Shown here: positions 55,338 through 64,000 of the stretch, piece by piece
Numbering within the stretch: position 1 is the first letter of the stretch
How the letters are laid out: the number at the start of each line of letters is the position of its first letter
Assembly: GCF_018224955.1 (NCBI RefSeq)
Contig: NZ_JAGTUU010000001.1
Coordinates: 62,001 to 126,000 of the forward strand
Source of the DNA: Thetidibacter halocola
GTDB lineage: Bacteria; Pseudomonadota; Alphaproteobacteria; Rhodobacterales; Rhodobacteraceae
DNA: 64,000 bases
Direction of reading: 5' to 3'
Program-made: the position numbers and the translations under genes
The notes under the pieces: generated by a model
Seen by the model: the letters and a program-made list of their open reading frames with translations, nothing else
The model's database searches: none
What the model was told of the DNA's origin: nothing

Positions 55338-56486
55338 TCAGAACCCCGGCGCGCGCGCGGTCAGTTGGGACGGCCCGACGGCCTCGAAATCCGGGACGCC
55401 CAGCTGGCCAAGGGCGCGAACCAGCTCAAGCTTGAGGATCTCCATCGCGCGGTTGGCGCCGGCGCGCCCTCCGGCGCCGACGCCATAGGCCAACGCCCGA
55501 CCGGCAAGGGCGAAATCCGCGCCAAGCGCCTTGGCCCGAAGCAGGTCCACGCCGCGCCTCACCCCGCTGTCGACGATGATCGCCATGCGTCCCTGCACCG
55601 CCTCGGCAATGGCCGGCAGCGCCTCGATCGTGGGCGGGCCAAAGGCGACCTGTCGCCCGCCGTGGTTCGATACCACGATCCCATCGCAGCCCATATCGGC
55701 GCATTGCACCGCGTCCTGCGGATGCAGGATGCCCTTGACCAGCAGCCTGCCCTTCCAGCGGTCGCGCAGGCGTTGCAGATCCTCCCAGGTGAAGCCCGGA
55801 GTGATCAGGGTCTTCTGCACATCGGCATAAGATGTCGCGGCCTTCAGCAGGTCGGCATAGTTGGCGATGTTGGGCTTGCCGTGACACAGCGTCTCCAGCG
55901 ACCAGCGCGGGTGCAGCGCCAGTTGCAGCAGCACCTCGGGCGTGATCCGGAACGGCACGGCCAACTGGTTGCGGATGTCGCGGTCGCGCTTGCCTGCCGC
56001 CGGCACATCCGCCGTCACCATCATCACCTTGTAGTCGGCGGCCTCGGCGCGCGCGACAAGACCCTCGGTCACCTTGGGGTCACCCGAGACATAAAGCTGG
56101 AACCAGCCGTTGCCGTCCGCGGCCTCGGCCAGTTCTTCCAGCGTGGTCGAGGCGGCGGAACTGGCGACATAGGGGATGTTTTCGCGCTTGCAGAGCCGCG
56201 CGAGGGTCAGGTCGGCATCCGGCCAGAAGGCGTTCAGCATCCCGATCGGCGCCATGCCGAAGGGCGCGTCGAAATTCTGGCCAAGGACGGTTGCCCGCGT
56301 GTCGATCTTCGAGACATCGACCATGTAGCGGGGCGTTAGCGTCACCTCTTCGAAAGCCTCGGAATTGCGCCGCAGGTTGCGTTCCGATTCCGCCCCGCCA
56401 TCGACAAGGTCGAAGGCGAAGCGCGGGATGCGGCGGCGGGCCATGCGCCGCAGGTCGTCGATCGAGGCCGCGCGGTCCAGTCCCAT
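55338..56486 (-). CDS. FMN-dependent alpha-hydroxy acid oxidase/dehydrogenase
   Basis: 382 residues from the ATG that overlaps the preceding stop (TGATG); GTG at 56498 is an alternative. TIM-barrel with the start RRIPRFAFDLVDGGAESERNL (IPRFAFDLVDGGAE), FMN site APFGMAPIGM, WFQLYVSGDP, the catalytic-His motif DGIVVSNHGGRQ and DSGVRRGVDLLRAKALGADF (DSGVRRGVDLL). Members oxidise lactate, mandelate, glycolate or longer 2-hydroxy acids. As the last gene of a dehydrogenase-rich operon it may oxidise a sugar-derived 2-hydroxy acid. Confidence 0.9.
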   Translation of the reverse strand: MGLDRAASIDDLRRMARRRIPRFAFDLVDGGAESERNLRRNSEAFEEVTLTPRYMVDVSKIDTRATVLGQNFDAPFGMAPIGMLNAFWPDADLTLARLCKRENIPYVASSAASTTLEELAEAADGNGWFQLYVSGDPKVTEGLVARAEAADYKVMMVTADVPAAGKRDRDIRNQLAVPFRITPEVLLQLALHPRWSLETLCHGKPNIANYADLLKAATSYADVQKTLITPGFTWEDLQRLRDRWKGRLLVKGILHPQDAVQCADMGCDGIVVSNHGGRQVAFGPPTIEALPAIAEAVQGRMAIIVDSGVRRGVDLLRAKALGADFALAGRALAYGVGAGGRAGANRAMEILKLELVRALGQLGVPDFEAVGPSQLTARAPGF

Positions 56487-57229
56487 CAGGTCGACCACCC
56501 GCCATCGACGGCAAAGGCCTGTCCGGTAGTAAAGGCCGACAGGTCGCCCGCGAGGTAGCAGACCATCTCGGCGATCTCCTCGGGCTGGCCCAGGCGGCCC
56601 ATGGGCTGGCGCGCCTGGAACGCGGCCAGAGCCGCATCGAAATCGCCGGTCGCCGCAAGCCGGTCGTTCAGCGAGGGGCTTTGCACCGTGCCGGGGCAGA
56701 TCGCATTGCAGCGGATGCCGTCCTTCACGAAATCGGCGGCGATCGCCTTGGTCATGCCGATGATGGCGGCCTTGGATGCGCCATAGGCAAACCGGCGTGG
56801 CGCGCCTTTCAGGCTGGACACGATCGAGGCGATGTTGACGATCGACCCGCTGCCCTGCTCCAGCATGCCGGGCAGGACCGCACGGGTCAGCCGGAACATC
56901 GCCTTGGCATTGAGGTCGAATGACCGGTCCCAGGCCGCGTCGTCGCAGTCGAGTATGGTTCCGTCATGCACCCAGCCGGCGCAGTTCACCAGTATGTCGA
57001 GCGGCGGCAGCGAGGCGACCAGCGCCTCCACCGCCGCTGCGTCAAGCACGTCCAGCCGGTGCGCGGTGATGCCGGCGGTTCCGGCGGCGACGGCCTCGAC
57101 CGCCGCGCCGTCGATGTCCGTGGCGATGACGGTCGCGCCCAACCGGGCCAATCCCTCTGCCGAGGCGCGGCCGATGCCGTTCGCGGCAGCGGTGACGAGG
57201 GCGGTCTTGCCTTCAAGGGTCTGTGTCAT
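56486..57229 (-). CDS. Short-chain dehydrogenase/reductase (DHRS6/keto-deoxy-fuconate dehydrogenase-like)
   Basis: 247 residues. The cofactor loop reads TAAANGIGRA rather than T-G-x-x-x-G-I-G, a variant seen in the DHRS6-like group. DILVNCAGWVHDGTIL, the catalytic FAYGASKAAIIGMTKA and CNAICPGTVQSPS follow. Asp-Ile in TDID after strand 2 predicts NAD. It is coupled to the next gene by a one-base overlap. Confidence 0.88.
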   Translation of the reverse strand: MTQTLEGKTALVTAAANGIGRASAEGLARLGATVIATDIDGAAVEAVAAGTAGITAHRLDVLDAAAVEALVASLPPLDILVNCAGWVHDGTILDCDDAAWDRSFDLNAKAMFRLTRAVLPGMLEQGSGSIVNIASIVSSLKGAPRRFAYGASKAAIIGMTKAIAADFVKDGIRCNAICPGTVQSPSLNDRLAATGDFDAALAAFQARQPMGRLGQPEEIAEMVCYLAGDLSAFTTGQAFAVDGGWST

Positions 57230-57238
57230 GGATCCTCC

Positions 57239-58003
57239 TCAGCGGGCCAGCCAGCCGCCATCCACGGCCAGGACGCTGCCATGGCAGTAGGCAGCAGCGT
57301 CGGAGGCGAGGAAGACGGCGGCGCCCGCGATTTCCGATGGGTCCGCAAAGCGGCCCGCGGGGATGCGTTCGAGCAGCGCGCGGGATCGTTCCGGATCGTC
57401 GCGCAGCGCCTGGGTGTTGTCGGTGGCGGTATAGCCGGGGGCGATGGCGTTGACGTTCACGCCCTGCCCCGCCCATTCGTTGCAAAGCGCCCGGGTCAGG
57501 CCGATCACGGCATGTTTGCTGGAGGCATAGGCGGGCACGCGCAAGCCGCCCTGCGAGCCCAGCACCGAGGACACGATCACGATCTTGCCCGATCCCTGCG
57601 CCACCATGCGCCGCCCAGCGGCCTGCGACAGCAGCCAGACGGAATCGAGGTTGACCGACAGCACGCGCCGCCAGTCATCCAGCGCCATCCTGGTCGACTC
57701 CTCGCGGTGGATGATGCCCGCGTTGTTCACCAGGATGTCGAGACCGCCCAGGGCGTCCGAGGCAAAACCGATCACCTTGTCCGCGGCGGCCTCGTCCATG
57801 CCGGCGAAATCCGCCTGCACGGCGGCGGCCTTGCGGCCCATGGCCCTGATTTTTTCAAGCGTCTCCTCGGGCTGGTGGCTGCGGCAGGTCAATGCCACGT
57901 CGGCACCGGCGGCGGCAAGGGCAAGGGCAATGCCCTCGCCGATGCCGGTCGCGCCGCCCGTCACCAGCGCCTTGCGGCCGGTCAGGTCGAACGGATTGGA
58001 CAT
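57239..58003 (-). CDS. Short-chain dehydrogenase (KduD/gluconate 5-dehydrogenase-like)
   Basis: 254 residues starting FDLTGRKALVTGGATGIGEG, the pattern of 2-deoxygluconate 3-dehydrogenase (KduD) and related sugar-acid dehydrogenases. VNNAGIIHREES, catalytic VPAYASSKHAVIGLTRAL and the C-terminal DGGWLAR follow. It lies 2 nt after the M24 gene and 9 nt before the next SDR gene. Substrate is probably a hexonate or related polyhydroxy acid. Confidence 0.88.
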   Translation of the reverse strand: MSNPFDLTGRKALVTGGATGIGEGIALALAAAGADVALTCRSHQPEETLEKIRAMGRKAAAVQADFAGMDEAAADKVIGFASDALGGLDILVNNAGIIHREESTRMALDDWRRVLSVNLDSVWLLSQAAGRRMVAQGSGKIVIVSSVLGSQGGLRVPAYASSKHAVIGLTRALCNEWAGQGVNVNAIAPGYTATDNTQALRDDPERSRALLERIPAGRFADPSEIAGAAVFLASDAAAYCHGSVLAVDGGWLAR

Positions 58004-58005
58004 CG

Positions 58006-59304
58006 TCAGTACCGGTTCGCGATGGGCAGGTCCTCGGCCGGGAACAGGCTGATGACCTCGCAGCCGGTTTCGGTCACGACGACCTCTTCCTCGATCCGCG
58101 CGGCGGAATAGCCGTCCGTCGCCGGGCAGTAGGTTTCCAGCGCAAAGACCATGCCTGTCTTGATCTCCATCGGGTGATCCAGACTGATGGCACGGCTGAT
58201 GATCGGGCGTTCGTGCAGGGCAAGGCCCAGACCATGGCCGAATTGCAGACCAAAGGCCGCATCCTCGTTCGGAAAACCAAGGCTTTCGGCAGTGGGCCAG
58301 ACCTCGGCCACCTTGTCGGTGGTCACGCCGGGCTTGATCATCGCGATCGACGCGTCGATCCATTCGCGCGCCTTCACATAGGCGTCGTTCTGCGACGGCG
58401 TCGCACGACCCACGTTGAAGGTGCGGTAATAGCAGGTGCGGTAGCCCTGATAGCTTTGCAGGATGTCGAAGAACGCCTGATCGCCGGGGCGGATCAGCCG
58501 GTCGGTAAAGTTGTGCGGATGCGGGTTGCAGCGCTCGCCCGAGATCGCGTTGATCGCCTCGACGTCGTCCGAGCCCATCTCGTAGAGCATCTTGTTGGAC
58601 AGGGCGACGATATCGTTCTCGCGCACGCCGGGTTTCAGTTCCTCGTAGATCATGTGGTAGACGCCATCGACCATGGCGGCCGCCTGGGTCAGCAGCTGGA
58701 TCTCGTCCCAGTTCTTGATCTCGCGCGCCGCCAGCATGATCTGCTGGCCGTCCACGACATTGATCCCCTCTTCCTTGAGCGCATGGAACATCGCGGTTTC
58801 GGCATAGTCCACGCCGACTGGCATGTTGGCCATGCCCGCATCCTTGATCAGCTGGGCGATCATCTTGGCGTATTTCTGCATCAGGCCGAAGTCGGGCGGG
58901 ATCGTGCCGCGCATCCCGACGACACCGGCAAGGCAGTGGTCCGGTTCCAGCCAGTCGGAATGCCGCTTGTGGTGGATCGCGGCCGATCCGAAATCCCAGA
59001 CATAGGGACTGTCATCGCCGGTCAGCAGGCAGAAGCGGCACATCTTGTCCCGTTCCCATTCGCCGATCTTGGTGGCGGTGACGTAACGGATGTTGTTGAC
59101 GTCGAACAGAAGCAGCGACCCGGCGTTCGAGTTCTGCAGCGACTGCCGGGTGCGCGCCAAACGGTAGCGGCGCAGGCGGTCATGGTCGATCCGACGTTCG
59201 AAATCCACCGATGTGTGACCCCAGGCGGGCAGGCGTTCACGCCATTCCCAGTTGGGTTCGAGGTCTTTCGGGGTAAGCAGGTTGGGCATCAAGGCGCGTG
59301 ACAT
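58006..59304 (-). CDS. M24-family metallohydrolase (creatinase/aminopeptidase P fold) with a substituted metal ligand
   Basis: 432 residues. The N-terminal creatinase-like domain spans about 35-200 and the pita-bread M24 domain about 205-425. Expected metal ligands are Asp280 (FFDIL), His357 (FGHGLGLALHE), Glu390 (FALETYCP) and Glu405 (ARIEEEV). The second Asp, 11 residues after Asp280, is Cys291 in GYRTCYYRTF. It is related to the DddP/ectoine hydrolase-like branch, but is not assigned to either. It lies within a dehydrogenase operon, so it probably hydrolyses or lyses a small substrate rather than a peptide. Confidence 0.85.
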   Translation of the reverse strand: MSRALMPNLLTPKDLEPNWEWRERLPAWGHTSVDFERRIDHDRLRRYRLARTRQSLQNSNAGSLLLFDVNNIRYVTATKIGEWERDKMCRFCLLTGDDSPYVWDFGSAAIHHKRHSDWLEPDHCLAGVVGMRGTIPPDFGLMQKYAKMIAQLIKDAGMANMPVGVDYAETAMFHALKEEGINVVDGQQIMLAAREIKNWDEIQLLTQAAAMVDGVYHMIYEELKPGVRENDIVALSNKMLYEMGSDDVEAINAISGERCNPHPHNFTDRLIRPGDQAFFDILQSYQGYRTCYYRTFNVGRATPSQNDAYVKAREWIDASIAMIKPGVTTDKVAEVWPTAESLGFPNEDAAFGLQFGHGLGLALHERPIISRAISLDHPMEIKTGMVFALETYCPATDGYSAARIEEEVVVTETGCEVISLFPAEDLPIANRY

Positions 59305-59374: not shown

Positions 59375-60184
59375 CTACTGGATGCACCAGCCGCCGTCGA
59401 TATGGACCATCTGGCCGGTCATGTAGTCGCTGTCGTCGCTGGCGAGGAACGACGCGGTGCCGACGATATCCTTCGGGTAGGACACCCGCTTGATCTGGAG
59501 CGCGTCGCGCACGATGTCGTCATAGGCCTGCCCTTCGCGCTCCTTGAAGCCGATATCGACCAGATCCTTGTCCAGTTGTTCCCAGAGCGGCGTCACCACG
59601 ACGCCCGGCGCATAGCCGTTAACGGTGATGTTATGCTCGGCCAGGCCGATCGCGCCGCAGTGGGTAAGCGCCAGACAGCCGTATTTCGAGGTGCAATAGA
59701 CCGTCACATCCACCAGCGGCTTGCGCGAGGCGATGGAGCCAACGTTGATCAGCTTGTAGGGATGATCCTCCATCGGGCCCTGCGCGATCATCTGGCGGGC
59801 GGTTTCCTGCATGCCCAGCCACATCGCCTTGGTGTTGACGTTCATGATCATGTCCCAGTTGTCTTCGTCGATATCCATGAAGAACCGGGGCTTGTTGAGG
59901 CCGGCATTGAAAAGGCCCACGTTGATCGAGCCGAAGGCTGCGACCGTGGCGGCCACGGCGGCGGCGTTGTCGGCGCGTTTGGTCACGTCCATCTTGACCG
60001 CGATGGCGCGGCCGTTGCCCTTGGCGTTGATCGCGTCGGCCACCTTTTGCGCCTCGGCCTGATCGAGGTCGCCCAGGCACACGTTCGCGCCCTGCGCCGC
60101 AAAGGCTTCGGCATTGGCCGCGCCCATGCCGCGGGCGGCGCCGGTGATCAGGATGTTCTTTCCCTTCAGGCGGTTGGGGTCCAT
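59375..60184 (-). CDS. Short-chain dehydrogenase, polyol/sugar type
   Basis: 269 residues. ILITGAARGMGAANAEAFAA is the cofactor motif, LGDLD gives the NAD-selecting Asp, and FNAGLNKPRFFMDIDEDNWD follows. Catalytic VYCTSKYGCLALTH and C-terminal TGQMVHIDGGWCIQ complete the fold. The central N-A-G-x-N-K-P segment and M-G-M-Q-E-T-A-R-Q-M-I-A-Q helix are nearly repeated in the dehydrogenase at 63286, so the two are paralogues either side of the divergent promoter. It is the second gene after the fusion regulator. Confidence 0.88.
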   Translation of the reverse strand: MDPNRLKGKNILITGAARGMGAANAEAFAAQGANVCLGDLDQAEAQKVADAINAKGNGRAIAVKMDVTKRADNAAAVAATVAAFGSINVGLFNAGLNKPRFFMDIDEDNWDMIMNVNTKAMWLGMQETARQMIAQGPMEDHPYKLINVGSIASRKPLVDVTVYCTSKYGCLALTHCGAIGLAEHNITVNGYAPGVVVTPLWEQLDKDLVDIGFKEREGQAYDDIVRDALQIKRVSYPKDIVGTASFLASDDSDYMTGQMVHIDGGWCIQ

Positions 60185-60200: not shown

Positions 60201-62030
60201 TCACGGTTTTCCGTCTGGTCGTATCAGCGCGTCGGCCCGTTTCTGGGCGGTGCGCAAGGCCTCGCGCGGGGACGTGATCCCGCGCAGCATGTCGTGGAAT
60301 TCCTCGCCGCAGATGCGGATGATGTTGCAGATCTCGGGCACCGGCGGGCGGGGCCAGAATTGCAATTCGTCGCGCCATGACATGGCATCGACCGCCTCGA
60401 AGATCGTCGAGGCGCGGCGCACCTCTGGGTCTGCCCCGACCGAATAGCGCGGATTGGTCCGGCTGCCGTTCTGCACGAACAGCTTCTGCGCCTCGGGCGA
60501 GGTGAAGACGCACAGCGCCTCGACCGCGGCCGGAATGCGCTCGGGCGCGAGGTTGGCGGGGATGCCCATGACATAGCCGCCCACCGGCGCGACCTGGGCC
60601 GCGCCCTGCCCCGCCGGATGCGGCAGATAGCCTGTCTGGCCATAGGCGGGCGAGCTTTCGTCCATCTCGAAATACGGCGCCAGCAGGGTGTAGCCATAGG
60701 CCATCGCCACGGTTCCGGCGGCATAGGGGCGGACACGCTCGTACCAGGACATCGACAGGATGTCGGGGGGCGAGTATTGCAGCAGGTCCAACAGGAACTC
60801 GGCGGCGTAAAGGCCCGCCTCGGTGTCGATGGTCACGCGGTAGCCGCCCTGCGCCAGGTGATCCGTGCCAAAGCCGCCGGCGATGACGGGCAGGTCCAGG
60901 ATCGGCTGGCCGAAATCGGCAAAGGCCATCAGCACCGTGTGCCCCAGCGCAGTGCCGCGCGCGGCGTTCCAGGCGATGCCGTGGCGGCCACGTTGCGGCT
61001 GGTGCAGCGTCCGGGCGGCGCGCAGCAGCGCGTCGGTGGTCGCGGGCGGTTCAAGCCCGGCCTCGGCGAACAGGTCGCGTCGGTAAAACAGCAGTTCGGG
61101 CGTGGTCTGGGCCGGGACGCCATAGGCGCGCCCGCCCCAATGCGCCGCCTGCCAGCCGGCCGTGTGGAAATCCGCCGGGTCCAGCCGGGCCAGGTCCATC
61201 ACCTGGTCGAGCGGCATCAACACGTCGCGTTCGGCGAATTCGCCGATCCATGGCAGGTCCACCGCGACGATGTCGTAACGGCTGGTCTCGCGCGCCGCGT
61301 TGCGCAGCGCCTCTTCGCGCAGGCGGTCGATGGAAAAGGCGCGCTGGCTGATCTCGGTGCCGATGACCTGCTCGAACTGGCGCTTGAGATTGTCCATCAC
61401 CATGAAGGTCGGGTCGCCATGCACCAGCACTCGGATGCCGCCCGGCACCTTGAGCGGTTCGCGGCGCACCCGTAGCGGCGGGATCGACTGCGCCGCCGCA
61501 TAGCTGCCGCCGTAGTAGTAATCCTGGGTGTCCTGGCCCTTGGCCTCGCCGCCGAAATGGCCCTCGGCGAGGCGCCGCAGGCGGCCTGACAACTGCACCC
61601 AGCGCGCCAGCAGCGCATCGCTGGGATGCATCGAGAACGTCTTGCCCGTTCGGGTGCGCGGGCGTTGTTCGATCAGCCCGGCCTCGACCATCTCCTTGAG
61701 GCGGCGGTTCGCCGTGGCGTAGGGCACGCGACTGGCGCTGATAAGCGAGGTCGGCGTGACGGTCTTGGCATCGAGATGCCCGCGCATCAGATGCAGCGCC
61801 ATGCGCAGATGCGCATTCGGCACCAGGATATCCAGCGCGTCCTCCAGCTCGTCGGTGAATTCCTCGAGAAAGGACAGAACCTCGAGCGTCTCGGTCTTCG
61901 CCTGTGGCGAAACCGGGCTGCCTTGGTTATGTCCTCTCATGGCGTTCATCGTGCCCGTGTGCCTTTTCACTTGCTGGTGCTTGCGCGGCTGTGCGGTGGT
62001 ATCCGTTTTGGATGAGTTGGATTCGCTCAC
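60201..62030 (-). CDS. Winged-helix DNA-binding domain fused to an ABC solute-binding (SBP family 1) domain
   Basis: 609 residues with a polar N-terminus and no signal peptide, so it is cytoplasmic. A MarR/ArsR-like winged helix lies at about 71-136 (SLISASRVPYATANRRLKEM, then VEAGLIEQR). A linker follows, then from about residue 195 a type-2 solute-binding domain: IRVLVHGDPTFMVMDNLKRQFEQ (HGDPTFMVMDNL), VPAQTTPELLFYRRDLFAEA (PELLFYRRDLFAEAG) and GGYVMGIPANLAPE. Such domains are normally exported receptors; here it should act as the ligand sensor of a one-component regulator. It is divergent from a real periplasmic binding protein and first in the dehydrogenase operon. Confidence 0.85.
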   Translation of the reverse strand: MSESNSSKTDTTAQPRKHQQVKRHTGTMNAMRGHNQGSPVSPQAKTETLEVLSFLEEFTDELEDALDILVPNAHLRMALHLMRGHLDAKTVTPTSLISASRVPYATANRRLKEMVEAGLIEQRPRTRTGKTFSMHPSDALLARWVQLSGRLRRLAEGHFGGEAKGQDTQDYYYGGSYAAAQSIPPLRVRREPLKVPGGIRVLVHGDPTFMVMDNLKRQFEQVIGTEISQRAFSIDRLREEALRNAARETSRYDIVAVDLPWIGEFAERDVLMPLDQVMDLARLDPADFHTAGWQAAHWGGRAYGVPAQTTPELLFYRRDLFAEAGLEPPATTDALLRAARTLHQPQRGRHGIAWNAARGTALGHTVLMAFADFGQPILDLPVIAGGFGTDHLAQGGYRVTIDTEAGLYAAEFLLDLLQYSPPDILSMSWYERVRPYAAGTVAMAYGYTLLAPYFEMDESSPAYGQTGYLPHPAGQGAAQVAPVGGYVMGIPANLAPERIPAAVEALCVFTSPEAQKLFVQNGSRTNPRYSVGADPEVRRASTIFEAVDAMSWRDELQFWPRPPVPEICNIIRICGEEFHDMLRGITSPREALRTAQKRADALIRPDGKP

Positions 62031-62080
62031 GGCTGCTGACCTCTAAAATGTCCAGAGTGGTGTTCAACGCGTATCGCAAA

Positions 62081-62120
62081 AATATCTGATCTGGATATTA
62101 TAATATTCATTATGGATATT
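62081..62120. promoter_or_regulatory. Two 19-bp inverted repeats, likely operator of the fusion regulator
   Basis: AATATC-N7-GATATT (62081-62099) and AATATT-N7-GATATT (62102-62120) are 21 bp apart, two helical turns. TGGATATTAT is repeated exactly at 62092 and 62113. They lie 51-90 bp before the regulator start and about 136 bp before the binding-protein start, in an AT-rich island within GC-rich DNA. Confidence 0.65.
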
Positions 62121-62255
62121 ATTGTCGCGGTCCGATTGCCTGGAACACGGCACAGTGTCGTTCAATCGTTCGGTGCGCCGAGTGATCTGTCGGCGTCCTC
62201 GACGGGACGCCACTAAGAACCGAAGAAGACCAACACCATCGGGGAGGAGACCCAC

Positions 62256-63206
62256 ATGAAACTTCGCAACACCCTTGCAGCATCGACCGCCCTTCTGGCG
62301 CTCGCCGGCGTCGCGTCGGCCGAGACCATGAAGATCGGCATCACCCAGAACAATGTCGGCGTCGACAGCTACCAGACCACCTATGAAAAGGCCTTCATCG
62401 CGGCCGCAGAGGCCAATGCCGATGTCGAGGCCGTGGTGCTGGACGCCGGCGGCGACGTGGCACGCCAGATCGCGCAGATGGAGGACCTGATCCAGCAGGA
62501 AGTCGACGCCATCATCATCTGGCCGACCAACGGCGAAGCGGTGATCCCCGCAGTGCGCAAGGCCAAGCAGGCCGGCATTCCGGTTATCGTGACCAACTCG
62601 AACATCGCCGAGGCGGGCTTCGACTTTGTCGCGTCCTTCTCGGGCCCCGACAATATCACCCAGGGCGCGCGCTCGGCCGAGATCATGTGCGACAAGTTCA
62701 AGGAGATGGGCATCGAGAACGAAGCCCAGGTCGTGCACATCACCGGCCAGCCCGGCTATACCACCGCGATCGAGCGCGCCAAGGGTTTCGAGGATCGCCT
62801 GCCCGAGGTCTGCCCGGACGTCACCGTGGTCGATACCCAGCCGGGCGACTGGAACCGCGAGAAGTCGCAGCAGGTGATGGAAGCGTTCCTGGTCAAATAT
62901 GACGACATCGACGGCGTCTATGCCGGCGACGACAACATGGGCGTGGGCGCCCTGAACGCCGCCAAGGCCGCGGGCCGCGAGGGCATCATCTTCGTCGGTG
63001 CCACCAACTTCGCCGTCGGCTACGAGGCGATGGCGGCGGGCGACTACTGGGGCTCGATCTACCAGTCGCCGGTCGATGACGCCGAGGCCGCGCTGAAGAC
63101 GGCCATCGACGTGCTCGAGGGCAAGGACGTGCCGTTCCTGAACTACTTCGACACGCCGAAGATCACCCAGGATAACATGGCCGACTTCACCAAGCCGGTG
63201 TTCTGA
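62256..63206 (+). CDS. Sugar ABC transporter substrate-binding protein, ribose/xylose type
   Basis: 316 residues. A signal peptide (about 1-22, ending VASA) precedes a type-1 periplasmic-binding domain (Peripla_BP_4): MKIGITQNNVGVDSYQT, QMEDLIQQEVDAIIIWPTNG (LIQQEVDAIIIWP), ITGQPGYTTAIERAKGFED (GQPGYTTAIERAKG) and VYAGDDNMGVGALNAAKAAG (AGDDNMGVGALNA). GGAGGAG lies 7 nt before the ATG. It is first in the right-hand arm. Permease and ATPase genes are presumably beyond the window. Confidence 0.93.
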   Translation: MKLRNTLAASTALLALAGVASAETMKIGITQNNVGVDSYQTTYEKAFIAAAEANADVEAVVLDAGGDVARQIAQMEDLIQQEVDAIIIWPTNGEAVIPAVRKAKQAGIPVIVTNSNIAEAGFDFVASFSGPDNITQGARSAEIMCDKFKEMGIENEAQVVHITGQPGYTTAIERAKGFEDRLPEVCPDVTVVDTQPGDWNREKSQQVMEAFLVKYDDIDGVYAGDDNMGVGALNAAKAAGREGIIFVGATNFAVGYEAMAAGDYWGSIYQSPVDDAEAALKTAIDVLEGKDVPFLNYFDTPKITQDNMADFTKPVF

Positions 63207-63285: not shown

Positions 63286-64000
63286 ATGGGACGTGTTTCT
63301 GAACGCGTCTGCATCGTGACCGGCGCGGCGCAAGGCATCGGCCGCGCCATCGCCGAGGCGTTGCTGGATGAAGGGGCAAGGGTCTGCCTTGCCGACATCA
63401 ACGGCGACAAGGTCGCCGAGACCGCCGACGCGCTGCGCAGCCGCCTGAACGGCCGGGCGCGCGACGTGACCTCGGCCCGGGTCGACGTGACAGACCGCGA
63501 CCAGGTGCGGGCGATGATCGCCCACACGGTCGAAACCTTTGGCAGGCTGGACGTCAAGTTCAACAATGCCGGCGTGAACAAGCCGATGAACTTCATGGAC
63601 GTGACCGAGAAGAACTGGCACTTCATCATGGATGTCAACGGCCTGGGCTGCCTGATCGGCATGCAGGAGGCCGCGCGCCAGATGATCGCGCAAGGCGGTG
63701 GCGGCAAGATCATCAACACCGCCTCGGTCGCCAGCCGTCAGGGCTTTGACAACGTCGCGCCCTACTGCGCCTCGAAATGGGCCGTGGTCTCGCTGACCCA
63801 GTCGGGCGCGCGCGATCTGGCCAGGCACGACATCACGGTGACGGGCTTTGCCCCCGGGGTGGTTGCCACCGAGATGTGGGAACAGGTCGACAAGGACCTG
63901 ATGGAGATCGGCGCCGCCGATCGGCCCGGACAGGCGATGGAGGAATTCTCGGCCGAGATCCTCCGGGGCCGCGTGGCCAAACCGTCGGACATCACCGGGA
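63286..64000 (+). CDS. Short-chain dehydrogenase, polyol/sugar type (partial, runs off window)
   Basis: The first 238 codons are present. The cofactor motif is IVTGAAQGIGRAIAEALL, with ADIN for NAD, NNAGVNKPMNFMDVTEKNW, and catalytic APYCASKWAVVSLTQ. The sequence EMWEQVDKDLMEIG mirrors LWEQLDKDLVDIG in the minus-strand dehydrogenase at 59375. The pair probably act on related polyols or sugars taken up by the adjacent transporter. Confidence 0.9.
   Translation, partial: MGRVSERVCIVTGAAQGIGRAIAEALLDEGARVCLADINGDKVAETADALRSRLNGRARDVTSARVDVTDRDQVRAMIAHTVETFGRLDVKFNNAGVNKPMNFMDVTEKNWHFIMDVNGLGCLIGMQEAARQMIAQGGGGKIINTASVASRQGFDNVAPYCASKWAVVSLTQSGARDLARHDITVTGFAPGVVATEMWEQVDKDLMEIGAADRPGQAMEEFSAEILRGRVAKPSDITG

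Follow-up and report, generated by a model that had tools for sequence, protein, structure and literature searches.

We consider it likely that the protein encoded by the minus-strand gene at 60201-62030 of this Thetidibacter halocola DNA is a cytoplasmic, locally acting one-component regulator, in which a winged helix is joined to a MalE-type sensor and which probably works as a ligand-released repressor. The window, i.e., the whole stretch of DNA analysed here, is 64,000 nucleotides long, and all positions below refer to it (Table 1). An earlier note on this DNA had proposed a one-component regulator made of a winged helix and a captured binding domain, and this proposal is supported by the domain composition of the protein, by the conservation of its locus and by an operator-like motif upstream of the gene.

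Table 1. Features of the regulator locus, in window coordinates
Feature	Position	Strand	Evidence
L-lactate dehydrogenase-like FMN-dependent dehydrogenase (PF01070), below NCBIfam cut-offs	55338..56498	(-)	Pfam, NCBIfam
Short-chain dehydrogenase	56486..57229	(-)	Pfam, NCBIfam
Short-chain dehydrogenase, KduD-like (slightly below cut-off)	57239..58003	(-)	Pfam, NCBIfam
M24 peptidase-fold protein	58006..59304	(-)	Pfam
Short-chain dehydrogenase directly after the regulator	59375..60184	(-)	Nearest NCBIfam acetoin reductase and L-iditol 2-dehydrogenase, below cut-off
Regulator gene, 609 aa, winged helix and family-1 solute-binding domain	60201..62030	(-)	ORF, Pfam, model, start conservation
Family-1 (MalE-type, type-2 fold) solute-binding domain, residues 194-606	60213..61451	(-)	Pfam, phmmer, Foldseek, VIA-align
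Long helix after the wing, residues 138-159	61554..61619	(-)	Predicted secondary structure
Winged-helix DNA-binding domain, residues 71-136	61623..61820	(-)	Model, Foldseek, hhalign
Third candidate operator palindrome, score 20.5, within the regulator's first codons	61992..62022	.	Matrix scan
Candidate accessory half-site, score 15.3, 34 bp before palindrome 1, adjoining the regulator start	62041..62058	(+)	Scan; consensus
Candidate operator palindrome 1, score 26.0, starting 21 bp before palindrome 2	62075..62105	.	Matrix scan
Candidate operator palindrome 2, score 35.4	62096..62126	.	Matrix scan; conserved tandem
Type-1 (Peripla_BP_4, CUT2-like) periplasmic sugar-binding protein, divergent, likely target	62256..63206	(+)	Pfam E 5.7e-55; adjacency in relatives
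Short-chain dehydrogenase, running beyond the window end	63286..63999	(+)	Gene calling, Pfam

The regulator gene comprises 609 codons, counted from a GTG start at position 62030. In our comparison of starts (22 rows printed out of 71 computed, namely the window and 21 relatives), 21 of the 22 printed rows carry a GTG or ATG codon 102 codons upstream of the PYAT motif, and in 20 of these 21 it is preceded by a Shine-Dalgarno-like run of at least three bases. Since the position is kept across rows, GTG 62030 is a credible start. The start chosen by the gene caller, ATG 61949, was rejected because the upstream GTG is better conserved.

A full-length model was built from 37 sequences and is of modest confidence (mean pLDDT 64.4, pTM 0.57). 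It contains the elements of a winged helix in the order helix 73-86, helix 93-99, helix 104-116, strand 120-124 and strand 132-136, i.e., where the earlier note had placed such a domain. Because the structural matches listed for the full model consisted solely of binding proteins and fusion constructs thereof, a separate model of the winged helix was made and used for its own search. Residues 40-170 gave a pLDDT of 89 and a pTM of 0.81, and the first Foldseek match was a MarR-family regulator (E 2.1e-4, TM-score 0.53). At the level of Pfam, the match of the window winged helix is weak (MarR_2, E 6.9e-4, 20.2 bits with a cut-off of 27); MarR_2 is found in 12 of the 37 aligned family members (E <= 0.01), and a Paraburkholderia relative passes the threshold for HTH_IclR (31 bits, cut-off 22). 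A profile search of the PDB with the winged helix returned nothing significant, the best E being 0.23. At the domain level, the model places this part of the protein with the MarR/IclR-type winged helices of helix-helix-helix-strand-strand order. Assignment of the whole protein to the MarR family was rejected, as it has 609 residues with an extra domain and MarR_2 stays under its cut-off. The long helix predicted after the wing is possibly a dimerisation helix or a linker.

The rest of the protein is a solute-binding domain. Pfam detects SBP_bac_1 (PF01547) at residues 241-516 (E 3.6e-25, 90 bits, cut-off 26) and SBP_bac_8 at residues 224-541 (E 1.3e-19), and PF01547 is found in all 37 aligned family members, the window included (E <= 0.01). 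The nearest solved sequences in a phmmer search of the PDB were family-1 sugar-binding proteins, headed by 5iai (3.5e-28). VIA-align superposed 355 residues on 5iai with a Z of 30.9 and an rmsd of 3.2 A, and together with Foldseek it put residues ~190-606 onto family-1 binding proteins. The earlier note had likewise seen about 400 residues of family-1 sequence. Because Pfam, the fold matches and the separate winged-helix model agree, we regard both domains of the regulator as well supported; structure prediction, suggested earlier as a check, recovered each of them.

The pairing of a winged helix with a family-1 domain is conserved in Rhodobacterales, Rhizobiales, Skermanella and Paraburkholderia, and across the first two orders, where such a survey had been advised, the neighbouring genes are conserved as well. 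With residues 47-227 as query, a match (E <= 1e-3) was obtained in 39 of the 198 genomes sampled from the same bacterial family, a count that includes the genome of the window itself and two genomes (G139 and G004) with short partial matches only. With a profile built from 18 relatives, 473 stretches were matched at one genome per species. Among the best 80 of these 473, whose matches all span 208 or more of 213 residues (the others may match partly), the titles named Rhodobacteraceae-type genera, Hoeflea, Stappia, Chelativorans and others. In a class-wide sample, 60 of 385 genomes matched, eight of them (G000, G055, G227, G314, G418, G455, G532 and G541) over the winged helix as well as the beginning of the binding domain. 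The corresponding figures for a phylum-wide sample were 44 of 398 and six (G000, G055, G186, G699, G811 and G859), G699 being a both-part match from outside the class. Matches were also present in 34 plasmid records, ranging from Phaeobacter and Rhizobium through Paraburkholderia (~23.5% identity). The Paraburkholderia gene (L163:8890-10545) encodes HTH_IclR above the cut-off together with SBP_bac_1; it faces a divergent Peripla_BP_4 gene and lies beside a gene named inositol 2-dehydrogenase.

The organisation of the locus recurs in relatives. Beyond the window end, the dehydrogenase gene starting at 63286 is followed by two permease genes (one checked: BPD_transp_2) and then by an ABC ATPase gene, so that one flank in relatives, consisting of a type-1 receptor, a dehydrogenase, two permeases and an ATPase, is also the flank found here. 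The other flank comprises a short-chain dehydrogenase and an M24-fold protein, followed by one of two catabolic sets. Set 1, seen for example in Phaeobacter, consists of E1-alpha, E1-beta, a lipoyl protein, an aldehyde dehydrogenase and E2; set 2, the window type, consists of two further dehydrogenases and the FMN-dependent dehydrogenase. Both sets occur paired with the same regulator and transporter (L035-L037, L043-L044 and others). For the M24 protein itself, the nearest NCBIfam model was DddP, at 121 bits against a cut-off of 600.

We collected 120 regulator genes, 110 of them distinct by their last 300 residues. Within nine genes of these 110, the Peripla_BP_4 cluster was present for 101, the permease cluster for 103, the ATPase for 99, the M24 gene for 89, E1-alpha for 53 and the FMN enzyme for 33, with membership assigned by sequence cluster, and with Pfam run on representatives, a two-member permease cluster excepted. 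The upstream neighbour was a divergent Peripla_BP_4 gene in 88 of the 106 distinct regulators with a known neighbour. The earlier note had also held that the transporter of the locus uses an unrelated type-1 receptor. This is true here and in 101 of the 110 relatives, but exceptions exist: on the Agrobacterium plasmid pAtCFBP6626a (L161), a relative sits between two different ABC transporter gene sets, one of which includes a UgpC-type ATPase and, as a receptor of its own, a protein annotated as extracellular solute-binding protein. The contrast between type 1 and type 2 is thus not strict. Elsewhere, two paralogous regulators of the family (L061 and L062) flank one transporter cluster, which lies near GMC oxidoreductase and Gfo/Idh/MocA genes. 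The solved binding proteins nearest to the transporter receptor of the window are 5hko, 4rs3, 2ioy and 4rsm, some of which we take to have been solved with polyols; a search of open-licence text for polyol-bound structures of these binding proteins found nothing.

Between the regulator and its divergent neighbour lies a conserved, operator-like motif. Of 106 divergent upstream neighbours, 98 belonged to the Peripla_BP_4 cluster and eight others were dropped; the operator set comprised the 92 of these 98 divergent regions that were shorter than 500 bp, six regions of at least 500 bp being dropped. The 92 regions are rich in the words TATCCA and TGGATA, and a position matrix trained on them gave 18.9 half-sites per kb vs 1.9 per kb in the remaining intergenic DNA of these loci. 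Every one of the 92 contained a palindrome whose offset is fixed at 13, and 79 contained a 21-bp tandem; among 460 shuffles preserving local composition, six contained the palindrome and none the tandem. After removal of identical regions, the AAAATRTCCA-type palindrome was found in 83 of 83, and 73 of 83 had two palindromes exactly 21 bp apart. Greater spacings between palindromes clustered at 82-87 bp (43 pairs) and 103-108 bp (38), and six pairs lay at 137-140 bp. The consensus of the 73 regions reads AAAATATCCA, three positions and TGGATAT, twice over, with a half-site AAAATGTTCA ahead of the tandem, near the regulator's start. These counts are not independent, because the matrix was trained on the regions themselves, the regions are kin and only exact duplicates were removed. 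Given this training on the 92 regions counted, sequences outside the set serve as an important control. Upstream of other genes in the family-sample loci, 21 of 535 regions reached the palindrome threshold, and with a reversed matrix none of the 535 did. Seven of the 535 control regions (in loci L034-L079) scored above 20 and may be further targets.

Within the 64-kb window, three palindromes pass the threshold, all of them inside 61992-62126. The distance from the third palindrome to palindrome 1 is 83 bp, a spacing that recurs in relatives. When up to two mismatches are allowed, a strict pattern for a single palindrome occurs at one place in the 4.84-Mb genome; as this pattern misses window palindromes 1 and 3, weaker sites elsewhere in the genome are possible. 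The segment 62081-62120, which had been put forward as the DNA target, falls inside the conserved tandem palindrome 62075-62126. In the 73 regions, the tandem starts 89-265 bp, often ~160-180 bp, from the start of the transporter gene. Our promoter search found no promoter-like match for the transporter operon; it returned one weak match (9/12) on the regulator's strand, over palindrome 2, with an average of 0.3 in shuffles. Overall, the AAAATRTCCA-type tandem palindrome is, judging from its conservation in these regions, the probable operator of the regulator.

Paralogues of the regulator bear on the tie between this motif and the DNA-binding domain. In a group located beside GMC oxidoreductase genes, whose recognition helix is similar, a palindrome was found upstream in all five members scanned, with best scores of 12.2, 13.4, 18.6, 19.3 and 22.8, the first two being weak; two members near contig ends were left out of the scan. 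Two paralogue groups with clearly different helices gave 0 of 2 and 0 of 5, and a fourth, mixed set gave 2 of 4. In this mixed set, the regulator L060 has a window-like helix and no palindrome upstream; its gene lies downstream within the operon. These indirect data suggest a tie between the operator and this DNA-binding domain, albeit an imperfect one.

The winged helix also occurs in another context. The class-wide search returned proteins of ~280-390 residues that match over the winged helix alone. In nine of 15 such loci (L174, L176, L177, L179, L180, L185, L190, L193 and L194), a receiver-like N-terminal part was recognised by eye, a reading that leaves out L175, L178, L183, L187, L188 and L195; Pfam confirmed Response_reg in all four proteins scanned (L176, L180, L193 and L194). 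When a profile of seven of these proteins was compared with the winged helix of the family, hhalign gave a probability of 98.1% (E 9.6e-14, 72 columns). The winged helices are homologous, so the same module serves both two-component and one-component designs.

The location of the protein has to be considered together with its names in databases. Of the 34 plasmid relatives, 26 are named extracellular solute-binding protein, one periplasmic component and one hypothetical protein, four have no feature at the site and two records carry no annotation. Such names would suit a conventional periplasmic binding protein whose start was called wrongly, a reading that we hold to be very improbable. Residues 1-40 of the regulator are polar and basic, and within residues 1-70 of the window protein the most hydrophobic 12-residue stretch averages 0.71 on the Kyte-Doolittle scale, so that neither a signal peptide nor a lipoprotein signal is seen in the hydropathy scan, in agreement with the earlier note. 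Among 116 regulator sequences, including the window and duplicate copies and with starts set by a gene caller that may lose true N-terminal residues, no signal-like segment appeared (maximum 1.62, median 1.10). The 76 neighbouring type-1 receptors have a median of 1.78 and as a group show a signal-like segment, in a test that is crude and in which the ranges overlap (the lowest value for a type-1 receptor is 0.69). Moreover, a conserved winged helix stands before the solute-binding domain, and the upstream start is kept in nearly all of the rows printed. Export of the regulator to the periplasm, which would have spoken against a cytoplasmic sensor, was rejected on sequence, as the hydropathy scan shows no hydrophobic N-terminal segment.

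Under the scenario that we favour, two dimers would bind the two palindromes, whose distance of 21 bp corresponds to two helical turns and would set them on the same face of the DNA, and binding to another site, located where the regulator gene itself begins, would lead to autoregulation. The solute-binding domain would close on an imported sugar or polyol, or on an early breakdown product, and the affinity for DNA would change. The ligand is plausibly a polyol or sugar carried by the CUT2-like transporter. As to the sign of control, repression lifted by the ligand appears most likely, because the AT-rich palindromes occupy possible positions of divergent promoters; the alternative would be activation. 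With a type-1 periplasmic receptor, one pathway would use two unrelated receptor folds across the membrane.

Activation of the divergent transporter operon is a less probable, though serious, candidate. Tandem sites 89-265 bp before the transporter start would suit an upstream activator site, and DsvR is an activator of zapC according to PMC13060122. Against it, the palindromes overlap the sole promoter-like match found and one site overlaps the regulator's own first codons; both fit repression, and neither is decisive. We give about the same, limited weight to the idea that the regulator responds to an intermediate of the pathway, or to some unrelated metabolite of the cytoplasm, instead of the transported substrate. 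A cytoplasmic regulator would stand where oxidised intermediates arise, and one combination of regulator and transporter occurs with either of two catabolic gene sets; however, regulator, transporter and first dehydrogenase mostly stay together and the later enzymes vary, which points to a shared substrate or first product. It is improbable that, in a DNA-binding regulator, the solute-binding domain has lost the binding of a free solute and serves as a dimerisation scaffold or senses the state of the transporter through contact with its cytoplasmic parts. MalT is tied to MalK in this manner, and a cytoplasmic protein could meet the ATPase, whose gene is nearby in 99 of the 110 relatives, but the entire binding-protein fold is kept, as the superposition on 5iai demonstrates, and the domain shows strong conservation, some aromatic and charged positions being invariant.

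Looking beyond the window, we lean, by a small measure, towards the view that these proteins constitute a widespread but unnamed family of regulators that sense sugars or polyols in the cytoplasm, with a winged helix of the response-regulator type joined to a captured MalE-type receptor. Such regulators would typically control CUT2 loci with a type-1 receptor, so that import and gene control would read the same compound by two independently evolved folds, and the tandem operator, with spacings of 21, ~84 and, in few regions, ~138 bp, may support looping. A search for a winged helix/family-1 fusion, covering open-licence text and few subscription journals, found no paper. GntR-type helices fused to family-1 binding domains exist as annotations in Firmicutes. 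If the relatives are re-read as regulators, a local control gene and a predicted operator could be assigned to many loci for sugars and polyols in marine bacteria and in bacteria associated with plants. Whether domain fusion can turn transporter receptors into switches also becomes testable, as does the way in which DNA binding is affected by a large hinge-bending domain.

Finally, we would like to compare the regulator with systems already known. A sensor built from a type-2 binding fold is not new, being present in SgrR/DsvR (with SBP_bac_5) and in LysR-type proteins. SgrR of E. coli and DsvR of V. cholerae are described in PMC13060122 as transcription regulators linked to sugar metabolism, with an N-terminal helix-turn-helix and a C-terminal solute-binding domain, and the same text attributes negative autoregulation to E. 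coli SgrR. The likeness to the window regulator lies in this order of parts, a helix-turn-helix followed by a solute-binding domain. However, SgrR has SgrR_N and SBP_bac_5, and the window protein matches neither. At E <= 1, SgrR_N (PF12793) and SBP_bac_5 (PF00496) are absent from the window protein, and the same library finds them in E. coli SgrR at 2e-43 and 2.2e-21, respectively; nor was any similarity between the two proteins detectable by BLASTP (E 0.95) or hhalign (probability 0.2%). Membership in the SgrR family is ruled out by the missing domains and the missing sequence similarity. LysR-type regulators combine a DNA-binding domain with a companion domain resembling type-2 periplasmic binding proteins, as described in PMC5882156. 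The window sensor, in contrast, is a full-size MalE-type domain of ~410 residues, and no LysR domain was matched by Pfam in the window protein.

LacI-family repressors are cytoplasmic sugar sensors of the type-1 binding-protein fold that act at palindromic operators near sugar genes. The window regulator resembles them as a putative cytoplasmic sugar sensor derived from a binding-protein fold, with a palindromic candidate operator near sugar genes, but it has the family-1, type-2 fold, and the type-1 fold belongs to the receptor of its transporter. The response regulators of other alphaproteobacteria that consist of a receiver and a winged helix share a homologous DNA-binding domain; they carry a Response_reg receiver before the winged helix, whereas the regulator described here carries a solute-binding domain after it. 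Family-1 binding proteins are exported transporter receptors without a DNA-binding domain, and the periplasmic members 5iai, 1eu8 and 4qrz have the same fold as the regulator over residues ~190-606.
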